Part shown: positions 14,943 through 27,487 of the stretch, piece after piece
Position numbering within the stretch: position 1 is the stretch's first letter
Layout: every line of letters begins with the position of its first letter
Source: Clostridia bacterium
GTDB taxonomy: Bacteria; Bacillota; Clostridia; Oscillospirales; Acutalibacteraceae
Assembly: GCA_017517135.1 (NCBI GenBank)
Contig: JAFXAK010000042.1
Coordinates: 1 to 41,454 of the forward strand
Length of the DNA stretch: 41,454 nucleotides
Reading direction: 5' to 3'
Position numbers and translations under genes: made by a program
Notes under the pieces: model-generated
The model's input: only the letters and a program-made list of their open reading frames with translations
Told to the model about the DNA's origin: nothing
Databases searched by the model: none

Positions 14943-14977
14943 CAAAAAAAATTCCTGTGCCAGAAAACTGACACAGG
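14943..14977 (-). terminator. Terminator of the microprotein operon
   Basis: On the minus strand, CCTGTGTCAG pairs with CTGGCACAGG around TTTT. The one non-Watson-Crick position is a G-U pair in the minus-strand RNA but an A-C mismatch on the other strand. A run of eight U residues follows. It starts about 13 bp after the stop codon of the second microprotein gene. Confidence 0.9.
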
Positions 14978-14989
14978 TTTTTTCTTTAC

Positions 14990-15145
14990 TTATTCAACTA
15001 CTTCGGGAGCTACTGTTGTTTCTTCTTCGCTCATACCAAGCATATTTTCAAAATAAGCGATTACATCCTCTACGGGGATGCCCATTTTCTCAAGGAAAAC
15101 TAAAGCCTTGATAAGAGTAACAATAATTTCAATTAAGCCTATCAT
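14990..15145 (-). CDS. Paralogous 51-residue microprotein B
   Basis: This small gene encodes 51 residues: a hydrophobic/amphipathic helix MIGLIEIIVTLIKALVFLEK, the turn MGIPVED, a second short helix VIAYFENMLG, and an acidic tail SEEETTVAPEVVE. It is 36/51 identical to the gene immediately upstream (15169-15324), and most differences are conservative (I/V, L/I). AAAGGAG lies 8 bp before the ATG, exactly as in its partner. Shared tail sequence, ribosome sites and arrangement show selection for the protein, so this is a real gene. There is no cleavable signal peptide. Function is unknown; a membrane-active or membrane-associated peptide is the simplest reading. Confidence 0.85.
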   Translation of the reverse strand: MIGLIEIIVTLIKALVFLEKMGIPVEDVIAYFENMLGMSEEETTVAPEVVE

Positions 15146-15168
15146 TTTTTTGTCTCCTTTTGATTTTA

Positions 15169-15324
15169 TTATTCAACTGCTTCGGGAGCTGATGTGGTTT
15201 CTTCTTCTGATGTGCCGAGCATTGCTTCGAGCTGAGCAATAAGATCCTCTACGGGGATACCGATCTTCTCAAGGAAAATAAGAGCCTTGATAATGCCGAC
15301 GAGAACTTTGATTAAACCTACCAT
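15169..15324 (-). CDS. Paralogous 51-residue microprotein A
   Basis: This is the first gene of a two-gene microprotein operon. The 51-residue product has an N-terminal amphipathic stretch MVGLIKVLVGIIKALIFLEK, then IGIPVEDLIAQLEAMLG and an acidic tail SEEETTSAPEAVE. The gap to its paralogue is 23 bp. A consensus promoter lies about 40 bp upstream and AAAGGAG lies 8 bp before the ATG, signals expected of high expression. I do not recognise the family. Tandem short peptides with amphipathic helices resemble phenol-soluble modulins or leaderless bacteriocins in size and arrangement, but there is no sequence match I can claim, and no transporter or immunity gene is adjacent. Confidence 0.87.
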   Translation of the reverse strand: MVGLIKVLVGIIKALIFLEKIGIPVEDLIAQLEAMLGTSEEETTSAPEAVE

Positions 15325-15363
15325 TGTTATTTCTCCTTTATATTTTTATTTTTTTACGCTTTT

Positions 15364-15392
15364 ATTATATAGAAAAATATGGGAATTGTCAA
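15364..15392 (-). promoter_or_regulatory. Consensus sigma-A promoter of the microprotein operon
   Basis: On the minus strand, perfect TTGACA (15387-15392) and perfect TATAAT (15364-15369) are separated by 17 bp. This is the closest match to consensus found in the window and predicts strong, possibly constitutive transcription of the two microprotein genes. Confidence 0.9.
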
Positions 15393-15404
15393 TAACGTTT
15401 TTTG

Positions 15405-15433
15405 TTGATTAGCTCAAATTTGTATGTTATAAT
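15405..15433 (+). promoter_or_regulatory. Sigma-A promoter of the GH35 gene
   Basis: TTGATT (15405-15410) and TATAAT (15428-15433) are separated by 17 bp, with AAGGAG at 15451-15456 and ATG at 15466. Its -35 box is only 12 bp from the -35 box of the divergent microprotein promoter, so the two are back to back. Confidence 0.85.
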
Positions 15434-24104: not shown

Positions 24105-26222
24105 TTAGTTATTAAGCGGTGTAGCCAGCTTCTTTTGCTTCTTTTCAGAAATTACCTGAATAACAATAATAAGAGCTACCAATGCAACACCAACAATATC
24201 TGTTATTGTTTCGGGAACTATAAGCATAACACCGCCGGCGAGAACGAGCAATCTCTGCCATATCGGAAGCTTTACCTGCATATGTCCCTCAAGTCCTGCT
24301 GCTACCGCATAAATGCCTATAAATGAGGTGATAATGATTAACACAACATCATACCACTGTGCATCTATAAAGAGCATTTTGGGGTTATATGCGAACATAT
24401 AGGGAATAACGAAAGCCGCAATGGCAAGTCGCGTTGCCGTGACACCCGTTTTAAGCGGATTGGACTTTGCAATAGCAGAGCCTGCATACGCTGCAAGAGC
24501 AACGGGAGGAGTGATGTCTGCCACAATACCGAAGTAGAATACAAACATATGAGCTGCAAGTATCGGGATGCCCATCTTGACAAGAATGGGGGCTGTGATG
24601 GTTGCCATAATAACATAGTTTGCTGTTGTGGGAACACCCATACCGAGAACGATACAGCAAATCATTGTAAGGAACAATGCAAGGAGCATACTGTTTTCTG
24701 CAATGGGAACAAGTGTGTTAAGAAGAAGCTGACCGAGAGCAGTCATTGTAACAACACCTGAAATGATACCTGCCATACCGCAGGCAACTGCAACACCTAT
24801 AGTGTTCTTTGCACCGTTATGGAAGGATTCAACCATAACTGCGGGTGAAAGAGTTGTGTTCTTCTTTGAAATAAAGGAAATAACAAGGCAAAGCACCATA
24901 CCGATGAAAACAGCCTTGCTCATATACTTGGAGCCGAAGCCGAGCCAGATGATAAGAGTAGCAGCGGTGGGGATTGCGGGATAAACAAACTGCCACAATG
25001 TGCTCTTATTAATTTCCTTGGGGAACAAACTTACAATAAGTGAGGTGAGAATTGCAAAGCAAGCTGAAACACCTGCGCTGAAATAGTTCATACAGATAAC
25101 AAGAACAACAACGGGAAGAAGAAGATAACCGTTTCTTGTTATAAGCTTGAAGAAATTGGGTATTGCATCCTTAGGAAGACCTTTGAGACCTAACTTCTTT
25201 GCTTCAAAGTGAATCATAAGGAAGATACCTGTGAAGTAAAGAGCTGCGGGCAGAATTGCAGTAACAGCAATAGAAGCATATGAAACGCCTGTGATTTCAG
25301 CCATAAGGAAGGCTGCGGCACCCATAATGGGAGGCATTATCTGTCCGCCTGTGGACGCTGCTGCTTCAACGGCTGCGGCAAATTCGGGCTTATATCCCGT
25401 TTTCTTCATAAGAGGAATTGTGATTGAGCCTGAGCCTACTGTGTTTGCAACAGAGGAGCCTGAGTACATACCCTCAAGAGCACTTGAAATAACTGCAACC
25501 TTTGCAGGACCGCCTATGGAGCTGCCTGCAACGGAGTTAGCAAGGTCAACGAAGAATGTGCCGATACCTGTTTTTTCAAGAAGAGCACCGAGGATAATAA
25601 ACAGAACAATAAATGTTGTGCAAACATAAACGGGAGTTGAGAACAAGCCGTTTGATACATCATAGTAAAGGCTGAACATAAGGTTTCTCAGAGCCTTATC
25701 GGGATTTTCCGCATAAGCCTTGACAACAGCATATACTATGAATGAGCCGGCAACAAATATAATCGGAAGACCGACTGCCCTTCGCACAAGCTCTATCAGA
25801 AGAATTATAGCAATCAGAGCAATAACAATTTCGAGTGTGCCGATACGGCGGCTCATCATAATGATGTCTTCCTGTTTTACTGTGTAATACAGGAATGCGG
25901 CGGCACCGCCTACCGCTAATATTATATCATAAAAAGGTACATAATTTATTCGTTTGGTCTGCTTTTTATAAGCAGGGAAAATAAGATATCCTAAGAAAAG
26001 GATAAATGCCATAAAGGTTGTAAGCTTCGTGTATTTGGTAGCATTCGGGAAAAGCAATGCCATTGATATCATATATACACTGAAAGAAACAAGAAGTCCG
26101 GTTATAACATGTTTACGCCAGCCGGTAAAAACTCTGGTGTTGCTTTCACGGTCAAATTCTTGCATTATTTTATCCGCGTCAACAACTTCTTCATCAACAA
26201 CGGATTTGTTTATTTCGTCCAT
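24105..26222 (-). CDS. TRAP transporter fused permease (TAXI type)
   Basis: The 705-residue membrane protein joins the small (DctQ-like, about residues 35-200) and large (DctM-like, about 200-690) permease subunits in one chain, as is usual for TAXI-type TRAP systems. The large part has motifs such as GSGSITIPLMKKTGYKPEFAAA, STGGQIMPPIMGAAAFLMAE, GMGVPTTANYVIMA and ITPPVALAAYAGSAIAKSNP. It imports an organic acid or amino acid driven by an H+ or Na+ gradient, using the binding lipoprotein encoded just upstream. The 92-bp gap holds a hairpin (26259-26287), and a strong terminator follows. Confidence 0.93.
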   Translation of the reverse strand: MDEINKSVVDEEVVDADKIMQEFDRESNTRVFTGWRKHVITGLLVSFSVYMISMALLFPNATKYTKLTTFMAFILFLGYLIFPAYKKQTKRINYVPFYDIILAVGGAAAFLYYTVKQEDIIMMSRRIGTLEIVIALIAIILLIELVRRAVGLPIIFVAGSFIVYAVVKAYAENPDKALRNLMFSLYYDVSNGLFSTPVYVCTTFIVLFIILGALLEKTGIGTFFVDLANSVAGSSIGGPAKVAVISSALEGMYSGSSVANTVGSGSITIPLMKKTGYKPEFAAAVEAAASTGGQIMPPIMGAAAFLMAEITGVSYASIAVTAILPAALYFTGIFLMIHFEAKKLGLKGLPKDAIPNFFKLITRNGYLLLPVVVLVICMNYFSAGVSACFAILTSLIVSLFPKEINKSTLWQFVYPAIPTAATLIIWLGFGSKYMSKAVFIGMVLCLVISFISKKNTTLSPAVMVESFHNGAKNTIGVAVACGMAGIISGVVTMTALGQLLLNTLVPIAENSMLLALFLTMICCIVLGMGVPTTANYVIMATITAPILVKMGIPILAAHMFVFYFGIVADITPPVALAAYAGSAIAKSNPLKTGVTATRLAIAAFVIPYMFAYNPKMLFIDAQWYDVVLIIITSFIGIYAVAAGLEGHMQVKLPIWQRLLVLAGGVMLIVPETITDIVGVALVALIIVIQVISEKKQKKLATPLNN

Positions 26223-26314: not shown

Positions 26315-27487
26315 TTATTCAGCTGTTGTTTCTTCTGCAGCTTCTTCAGCTGTTGTTTCTTCTGCAGTTGTTTCTTCAGCAGCTTCTTCTACAGTTGTTT
26401 CTTCAGCAGCTTCTTCAGCTGTTGTTTCTTCAGCAGCATCTTCAGCTGTTGTTTCTTCAGCAGCATCACCTTCAAGGATACCTGCTTCAATGTAGTACTT
26501 TTCTGCGCCGGGATGAAGAGGAACATCACCGATACCGTTAAGAGTTGTGTTTATATCCATCTGAGCACCCTTAGCGTGGCAAGTCTTAACATCTTCGTTT
26601 TCCCAAAGATTCTTTGTGATTTCATAAACCTGATCTTCGCTCATTTCGTTGGTAACAACATAAGTAGCCATAATAGCAACTGTCTTTACTGTTTCTTCAA
26701 CGAATGTGTAGTCAGCGTCTGTTACTTCATAAAGAGTGTAGAAGGGATATTCTTCAACAAGAGCGTTGATAACATCTTCACCGAGGTCAACGATAACAAC
26801 ATCTGTTGATGTTGCAAGCTCTGTGATAGCTGTTGTGGGAGTACCTGCTGTAACGAAAGCAGCGTCAAGAGAACCGTCCTTGAGACCTGCAGCAGCATCT
26901 GAGAAGGAAGCAGCGGTTGTCTTAAGATCGTTTTCAATGTCAAGACCTGCAGCTTCAATGATCTGGATAGCATTGTAGTAAGTACCTGAACCTGTGTCAC
27001 CGATACCAACCATCTTACCCTGAAGGTCAGCAACTGTCTTGATACCTGAAGAAGCTGTAGCAACGAGCTGAACAACTTCGGGATAGATGCAAGCAACTGC
27101 TGAGAAGGATGTGATGGGAGCAGTAAAGCCGTTAACACCCTTGTAAGCATAGTTCATAACATCGTTCTGAACTGTAGCGAAGTGATAGTCACCGTCTTCG
27201 ATACCTTCAATGTTAGCCTGTGAACCGCCTGTTGAAACAACTTCAAAGCCGTAAGCATCTGTTGTGATAGCCTGAAGAGAAGCGGTAGCGAATGCATAGT
27301 AAGTACCTGTTGTGCCACCTGTACCAACCTTGATTGTGTCAAACTTTGTGTCACCGTAAACTGCATCAGCAACAGTTGTTTCTTCACCTGCAGCTGTTGT
27401 TGTTTCGTTTGTTGTGTTGCCTGTGCAAGCAGCAAAGCAAGCAATACAGAAGGTAAGAGCAAGGATTAATGCGAGAACCTTTTTCAT
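26315..27487 (-). CDS. TAXI-family TRAP transporter substrate-binding lipoprotein
   Basis: The 390-residue protein has a lipoprotein signal with lipobox CFAAC (Cys21), a Thr-rich linker, and a periplasmic-binding fold of the TAXI family: IKVGTGGTTGTYYAFATASLQ, TGGSQANIEGIEDGDYHFATVQND, GDTGSGTYYNAIQIIEAAG. It captures the substrate outside the membrane and delivers it to the fused permease downstream. The last 50 residues are an acidic repeat (units like EAAEETTAE), encoded by 27-bp DNA repeats at 26318-26467; binding proteins of this family do not need such a tail. Divergent transcription from a LysR-type gene suggests control by that regulator. Confidence 0.93.
   Translation of the reverse strand: MKKVLALILALTFCIACFAACTGNTTNETTTAAGEETTVADAVYGDTKFDTIKVGTGGTTGTYYAFATASLQAITTDAYGFEVVSTGGSQANIEGIEDGDYHFATVQNDVMNYAYKGVNGFTAPITSFSAVACIYPEVVQLVATASSGIKTVADLQGKMVGIGDTGSGTYYNAIQIIEAAGLDIENDLKTTAASFSDAAAGLKDGSLDAAFVTAGTPTTAITELATSTDVVIVDLGEDVINALVEEYPFYTLYEVTDADYTFVEETVKTVAIMATYVVTNEMSEDQVYEITKNLWENEDVKTCHAKGAQMDINTTLNGIGDVPLHPGAEKYYIEAGILEGDAAEETTAEDAAEETTAEEAAEETTVEEAAEETTAEETTAEEAAEETTAE
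26318..26467 (-). repeat. Tandem 27-bp coding repeats in the TAXI protein tail
   Basis: The DNA encodes five full units of the pattern (D/E)AAEETT(A/V)E plus one short ETTAE unit. Codon use is nearly uniform (GCTGAAGAA, GAAACAACA), which suggests recent expansion by slippage. Copy number may vary between strains. The resulting tail is highly acidic and probably unstructured. Confidence 0.9.

Follow-up and report, generated by a model that had tools for sequence, protein, structure and literature searches.

Phenol-soluble modulins are secreted without a signal peptide via a dedicated exporter, and come from a different bacterial class than the microprotein family described here. The helix of the type I toxin TisB has its own stripe of polar residues, and AgrD-type signal precursors combine a cysteine (or serine) lactone core with an adjacent agrB gene. 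For TatA a charge zipper has been proposed, in which basic and acidic residues pair between a membrane helix and the amphipathic helix that follows it. Genes as short as those analysed below are skipped by many annotation pipelines. Type I toxins as a group are small proteins, typically shorter than 60 amino acids, with an sRNA antitoxin (PMC11264685). Leaderless bacteriocins are described as mostly highly cationic, and those of the aureocin A53 group as Trp-rich (PMC6131525). The charge-zipper model was not supported in vivo for TatA itself (PMC5601993).

Here we analyse two adjacent 51-codon genes in a 41,454-nucleotide stretch of DNA from a Clostridia bacterium (the whole stretch is called the window), and the family to which they belong. 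Like the modulins of staphylococci, the family is short and leaderless, with a lysine-bearing hydrophobic helix and tandem paralogues; it differs in having an invariant exact lysine heptad, a predicted second, acidic helix and purifying selection, and no Pfam match to modulins. The window's pair shares with leaderless bacteriocins (the aureocin A53 type and the multi-peptide ones) the lack of a leader and the arrangement of two equal-length tandem peptides, but its net charge is acidic, it contains no Trp and the neighbourhoods scanned have no immunity or transporter gene in common. Type I toxins such as TisB likewise stay below 60 residues and carry polar residues as a stripe on a hydrophobic helix; however, the family has no clear antitoxin RNA signal, has the putative second acidic helix, and occupies one conserved locus per genome. 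Basic-acidic pairing between two helices would link the TatA model with the hairpin proposed below, but the family, a short stand-alone protein, has no Pfam match to TatA. Neither a cysteine core nor an adjacent agrB, as in AgrD-type precursors, was found: none of the 36 sequences has Cys, and no AgrB family occurs among 50 scanned neighbours. The results do not support placing the family with the modulins, the leaderless bacteriocins or the type I toxins, and the likeness to the first two is one of form only, as the initial annotation had put it.

Results

The gene pair in the window has the following features.

15169..15324, minus strand: gene 1 (P0002), a 51-residue microprotein with K6, K13 and K20, E26, E33 and E40, a GIPVED turn and an EEETT tail, supported by homologues and dN/dS
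14990..15145, minus strand: gene 2 (P0001), a 51-residue paralogue of P0002, which alone among the 33 family members has E, not K, at position 6
15364..15392, minus strand: promoter of the pair, sigma-70-type TTGACA-17-TATAAT, 12/12 match, with 39 nt from the -10 box to the ATG
15333..15339, minus strand: RBS AAAGGAG of gene 1, 8 bp 5' of the ATG, read from the sequence
15154..15160, minus strand: RBS AAAGGAG of gene 2, 8 bp 5' of the ATG, read from the sequence
14954..14977, minus strand: intrinsic terminator of the pair, a 10-pair stem and then a T run, recovered by a second, separate terminator scan
14979..15336: a 179-nt unit of RBS and ORF repeated in tandem (14979-15157 and 15158-15336), the two copies 74% identical without gaps

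Both ORFs are real genes, and the pair is a tandem local duplication of the 179-nt unit. The initial annotation had described two 51-residue ORFs that are 36/51 identical, each preceded by AAAGGAG 8 bp before its ATG, with a perfect promoter ahead of the pair and a terminator behind it; both ORFs translate as described, the identity is confirmed (35/50 past the start Met), and all of these elements are present at the positions above. The pair's promoter is the sole 12/12 match to TTGACA-17-TATAAT in the window, where two matches with at most one mismatch occur versus 0.39 expected by chance. The best promoter score of gene 2 itself is 6/12, which suggests that the two genes are co-transcribed. 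Downstream of the pair lies a gene for a UvrD-like helicase, and upstream a divergent GH35 beta-galactosidase gene. Within 15364-15433 the microprotein promoter (minus strand) stands back-to-back with a 10/12 site facing GH35 (plus strand; TTGATT-17-TATAAT with TG before the -10 box), with 12 bp between them.

Searched with P0002 alone, the window's own genome yielded only P0002 itself and P0001, and its genus weak matches in six further genomes (E 9e-4 to 0.042). Iterated profiles, however, collected 33 distinct members of 37-54 amino acids, the pair included, in 32 genomes from four genera of one taxonomic family of Clostridia; homologues with a conserved reading frame are thus present. A seven-sequence profile matched 16 of the 27 genomes of the window's genus, one of them (G018) through a longer sister type, and the final 33-sequence profile found members in 15 of these genomes and gave no match in the other 12. 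A 27-sequence profile matched 7/7 and 9/11 genomes in two further genera of this taxonomic family; the fourth genus is represented by a single genome, G120. Sixteen genomes of a 398-genome sample of the taxonomic family matched at E <= 0.02, including G240 (E 0.0057) and G420 (E 0.016), which were not counted as relatives because their matches are partial. In an order sample the only match to a 14-sequence profile among 394 genomes was the window's own, and in a class sample three of 245 genomes matched, namely the window's own and two (L044 and L045) rejected because their matches lie inside long ORFs. No relative was found in viral contigs, and P0002 had no match in plasmids and phages or in a genome-contig collection searched with that single protein. 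Six named records with members are MAGs assigned to Clostridia, Ruminococcaceae or Eubacteriales, of which two come from goat omasum; they are the same sequences as G452, G225, G1008, G411, G364 and G304, and add no evidence.

The family occupies one locus per genome in all 32 genomes. Its usual layout is a single gene with its own terminator, and a few genes run straight into another gene. A tandem pair was found in only two of the 32 genomes (that of the window, G000, and G107), and the operon of two paralogues, which had been presented as the essence of the finding, therefore does not characterize the family.

Pfam hmmscan of 7 members at E <= 10 and of the 33 members at E <= 1 (15 families listed; HMMER filters drop most matches above about 0.1) gave weak matches, none of them to a modulin or delta-lysin family. 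No family was found for the members in Pfam, NCBIfam (7 proteins), PHROGs or PADLOC (4 proteins). PDB sequences gave one chance-level match, a designed fibre (E 0.021), and a further PDB search gave none; the earlier statement that no family with this sequence is known thus holds across these libraries. Weak Pfam and NCBIfam matches fell below curated cut-offs and were rejected as relatives, as were weak matches to PHROGs and those of the second Pfam scan. Sequence motifs of the family occur in none of 5.39 million papers, and other searches of open-licence PMC papers found none on the family. A smORF catalogue of 965 million entries exists (PMC11364881), and may hold family sequences unannotated. 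We file the family as new to the libraries searched, with K6, K13 and K20 in a hydrophobic N-terminal helix of a 37-54-residue protein as its defining feature (the three lysines are complete in P0002, whereas P0001 carries E6). Small helical proteins restricted to one lineage are, as a broad kind, known; the charge design is unusually regular.

The sister (B) type, of 57-61 amino acids, is present in G013, G015, G018 and G020, and combines a hydrophobic helix with a turn resembling GIDLEG and a tail rich in EETT. Its gene is flanked on one side by genes for an FtsH-type peptidase (M41) and a cyclophilin, and on the other by one whose cysteine-rich product has no Pfam match; a diverged B type is found in the same syntenic place in G006.

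L106, L107, L108, L105 and L113 (five genomes of the window's genus): B-type gene at the syntenic FtsH-type peptidase/cyclophilin place

P0002 matched the B profile at E 2.7e-4, and profile-profile comparison (hhalign) gave 38% probability over 18 columns, so that homology of the A type (the family proper) and the B type is uncertain; the window's pair may be a link between them, its helix being of A type and its tail B-like. In G120, a 44-residue hydrophobic ORF (L061 4877-5011, plus strand) lies just upstream of the A-type gene; it was considered as B-like and rejected, having a very long branch and being missed by the B profile.

These observations bear on the idea that unlike pairs, of an A-type protein with a second A- or B-type one, form a membrane hetero-oligomer, which would be compatible with either the hairpin proposed below or export as a surfactant. 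G000 and G107 each encode two distinct tandem peptides, A and B occur at separate loci in G013, G015 and G020 (B at its syntenic FtsH-PPIase place), and one window paralogue carries E6 where 32 of the 33 members have K6. However, 29 of the 32 A-type genomes have no separate B type (as judged with a B profile built from 4 sequences, whose match in G000 is P0002 itself), and the relation of A to B is itself uncertain. We consider a function as unlike pairs rather improbable.

The dN/dS ratio of P0002 and P0001 is 0.34, and 18 other pairs gave 0.03-0.33 (Nei-Gojobori; all 19 pairs hand-chosen, one of them of the sister type), the ratios being rough because several dS values are near saturation. 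Selection on the peptide, which had been deduced from the conservative differences between the paralogues, is thus borne out, and in none of the 19 chosen pairs is the ratio near 1. Helix 1 is under purifying, not diversifying, selection, and selection is looser C-terminal to residue 20, where dN/dS reaches up to 0.66 in some pairs. On the family tree, which is built from few alignment columns and leaves 18 of 36 forks open, genus labels change 7 times compared with 16.9 in shuffles, as expected of mostly vertical descent. The gene is best explained as a lineage-specific, mostly vertically inherited small-protein gene, and the pair as a local duplication.

Expression signals recur across the family. 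A promoter-like site scoring at least 10/12 lies within 120 nt upstream of 17 of 36 sequences (33 members and 3 of the sister type), versus 31 of 150 neighbouring genes, whose starts are unchecked longest-ORF starts, and 4.7% of shuffles (p 3e-4); five of the 36 have perfect promoters. For 13 of 17 sequences from the two other genera, the distance from the end of the -10 box to the start is 31-35 nt. GGAG is at the RBS place in 36/38, and terminators follow 30/38 compared with 2.9 expected, two of the eight genes without one being the first genes of tandem pairs. GTG or TTG serves as the start codon of some genes in a GC-rich subgroup of the window's genus, and the same subgroup has layouts in which the gene, lacking a terminator, leads directly into an MFS gene (G009, G011), a GH130 gene (G023) or a following start with an RBS of its own (G016). 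In G009 and G011, which are sister genomes, the microprotein gene overlaps the start of a same-orientation MFS ORF with no terminator between them, an arrangement that would suit a membrane accessory.

L056 4914-6556, plus strand, and L057 82-1697, minus strand (G009 and G011): MFS transporter ORF overlapped by the microprotein gene, a possible operon

In G020, G013 and G015 the microprotein gene comes after a gene for a protein of 508-533 amino acids.

A type I toxin, that is, a small membrane-depolarising protein held under antisense or trans-acting RNA control, would have the size observed here (<60 aa) and, as here, polar residues at seven-residue intervals along its hydrophobic helix. Antisense promoter-like scores, however, are near those of shuffles (mean 8.5 vs 8.1), and scores of at least 10 were found for 5 of 38 members, somewhat above the 5.7% of shuffles. 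No Rfam match was found in the window, P0002 has no plasmid or phage match, and all 32 genomes carry a single locus. The consensus-like, constitutive-looking predicted expression would argue against a free pore-forming toxin. A type I toxin seems to us very unlikely.

The N-terminal helix has lysines at exact heptad spacing: K6 is present in 32, K13 in 33 and K20 in 33 of the 33 members, which were found by profiles that reward those residues. Conserved hydrophobic residues are V2 (31 members), V9 (33) and I16 (31); positions 4-18 are otherwise mostly hydrophobic, with K at position 10 in 16/33 and a polar residue at position 17 in a third of members. The highest 19-residue Kyte-Doolittle mean is 1.73-2.53 over the 33 members. 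In 10 of the 33 members, helix 1 has a hydrophobic moment above that of shuffles (p < 0.05); P0002 (p 0.18) and P0001 (p 0.26) are not among them. The helix, GIPVED turn and SEEETT tail named in the initial annotation fit the letters; of its two words 'amphipathic/hydrophobic', the second describes helix 1 of the window's proteins better, since hydrophobic residues cover almost every side of this helix apart from a thin stripe of lysines, and its moment is not above that of shuffles.

In the second part of the protein, hydrophobic columns peak at P0002 positions 25, 28, 29, 32 and 36, and acidic columns at 26/27, 33/34 and 40/41 (weighted frequencies, effective n 15.9); further acidic columns lie off this register, at 39 (0.49) and, where present, 45 (0.57). 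Paired with K20, K13 and K6, the acidic peaks give a constant sum of 46, the geometry that an antiparallel salt-bridged hairpin would have. For 20 representatives the acid-register score summed to 44 versus 36.3 +- 2.2 in shuffles (2 of 2000 as high), in a post hoc test in which the pattern had first been noticed in P0002 and a relative, and the representatives and the register range were hand-chosen. All 33 members, which are mutually related, scored 68 versus 57.4 +- 2.8 (0 of 1000 as high). Acid-acid spacing was most enriched at lag 7 (z 3.25, the highest of lags 1-10), with lag 1 at z 2.0 and lags 3 and 4 not enriched. Taken singly, one of the 33 members has the register at p < 0.05, and eight have just one of the three acids in register. 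An acid register matching the lysine heptad is thus moderately supported.

P0002 has a net charge of -6 and P0001 of -8, and neither contains Trp; 20 of the 33 members are net negative, and 8 have Trp or a net charge of at least +2. These charges are unlike those expected of a leaderless bacteriocin of one or two peptides, an explanation suggested by the equal-length tandem peptides of the window and by one cationic subgroup with Trp (G025, for instance, at net +3). The 26 neighbourhoods scanned (50 proteins, 15 of them without a Pfam match) share no gene for immunity or export, although MFS genes adjoin four loci and ABC ATPases lie near three. Presence in 7/7 and 9/11 species of two genera would be unusual for a strain-level weapon. 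We regard a bacteriocin function as very unlikely.

The acidic tails of the window's pair (EEETTSAPEAVE) resemble T/E-rich stretches seen in proteins whose N-terminus is hydrophobic. In a set of 143 ORFs from the window and relatives, 36 ORFs have such an N-terminus and 4 of these contain a T/E-rich stretch, compared with 1 of the remaining 107 (p 0.014, with self-chosen cut-offs). The clearest case is a solute-binding lipoprotein encoded in the same window (26315-27487, minus strand; Pfam NMT1_3). By our reading of the sequence, its T/E-rich stretch lies past the lipobox and its C-terminal tail consists of many EETT/EEAA repeats; its gene adjoins one for a DctM-type TRAP permease (24105-26222). 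The resemblance favours a location outside the cell for the tails of P0002 and P0001; most A-type members have no such tail.

To characterize the loci, Pfam (at 1e-5) was run on 50 neighbouring proteins, at least one from each of 26 neighbourhoods; 15 of the 50 had no Pfam match, and no neighbour gene is common to all 26 neighbourhoods. Close relatives have neighbours in common. MFS genes adjoin the microprotein gene at four loci (G022, G017, G009 and G011), genes for TetR and MFS_2 are near the loci in G022 and G017 (TetR also in G014), and phosphoesterase genes are near those in G020, G012, G381 and G143. At a distance of 1.7-2.7 kb, G411, G364 and G324 encode ABC ATPases; in G013 a fourth one was recognized by clustering only. 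Radical-SAM genes were found at two loci.

L063 5213-10001, plus strand (G324, where two more related genes follow in tandem), and L069 5251-6246, plus strand (G425): radical-SAM gene downstream of the microprotein gene, from the Pfam scan

A RiPP precursor was rejected on this ground: the radical-SAM genes in G324 and G425, which belong to one genus, lie behind a terminator, and no radical-SAM match was obtained among the other scanned neighbours. Sugar-related genes (GH35, GH95, GH130, GH16, BNR repeat, fucose isomerase, MFS/sugar) are beside nine loci: those of the window, G008, G023, G411, G120, G020, G015, G022 and G017.

Window, L059, L053, L062, L061, L046, L048, L049 and L052: carbohydrate-related genes beside nine loci

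A link to carbohydrate use is a lead only, as the window itself has several such genes and the count has no background rate.

The adjacent MFS genes and the ABC ATPases would also suit an exported leaderless peptide, a surfactant or otherwise membrane-active agent working outside the cell in the manner of phenol-soluble modulins (in spreading, biofilm or competition). The short, leaderless, lysine-bearing hydrophobic helix, the tandem paralogues in 2 of 32 genomes, and the likeness of the window's tails to T/E-rich stretches, including that of the lipoprotein encoded nearby, are in line with such a role. However, the members match no modulin family in Pfam, the 26 neighbourhoods share no transporter or immunity gene (with the 15 proteins lacking a Pfam match among the 50 scanned), and helix 1 is under purifying rather than diversifying selection. 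Export as a surfactant is, in our judgement, unlikely.

Discussion

The explanation that we prefer, with somewhat less than even confidence, is that the product of these genes is a leaderless helical hairpin that is made constitutively, associates with the membrane and serves a housekeeping role in its own cell. The protein would be produced from a consensus-like promoter and without a signal peptide. Residues 1 to 20 would make up a hydrophobic helix whose lysines (6, 13, 20) line up as a stripe, spaced by exact heptads, followed by a turn and a second, amphipathic helix with acids in matching register (26/27, 33/34, 40/41). The chain could then fold back into an antiparallel hairpin held by lysine-acid salt bridges, and the hydrophobic remainder of helix 1 would sink into, or assemble at, the producer's own cytoplasmic membrane. 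There the protein may work as a small housekeeping accessory or organiser, with the acidic C-terminus as its variable part. Conservation, a single locus per genome and presence in nearly all analysed species of two genera together suggest housekeeping, and argue against a weapon or toxin. Points that weigh against this explanation are the 12 of 27 genomes of the window's genus in which the profile had no match, the looser selection past residue 20, the few members in which the moment of helix 1 beats shuffles, and the likeness of the window's tails to T/E-rich stretches, which favours a position outside the cell.

A more specific form of the hairpin is doubtful, though worth considering: a minimal membrane charge-zipper of about 40 residues, in which the three heptad lysines pair with three acidic doublets (sums of 46), near-universal in at least two genera and occurring as unlike pairs in some genomes. 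If true, small membrane proteins of bacteria would gain a new architectural class.

A pair of 51-codon genes has thus revealed a coherent family that purifying selection maintains, whose charges follow a very regular pattern and which has no entry in the libraries searched. The exact 7-residue spacing of the lysines and the matching acids make the structural idea directly testable, in a protein small enough for synthesis. If the idea is true, the family would provide a simple model from nature for the way in which salt bridges allow a hairpin with charged residues to reside at a membrane.
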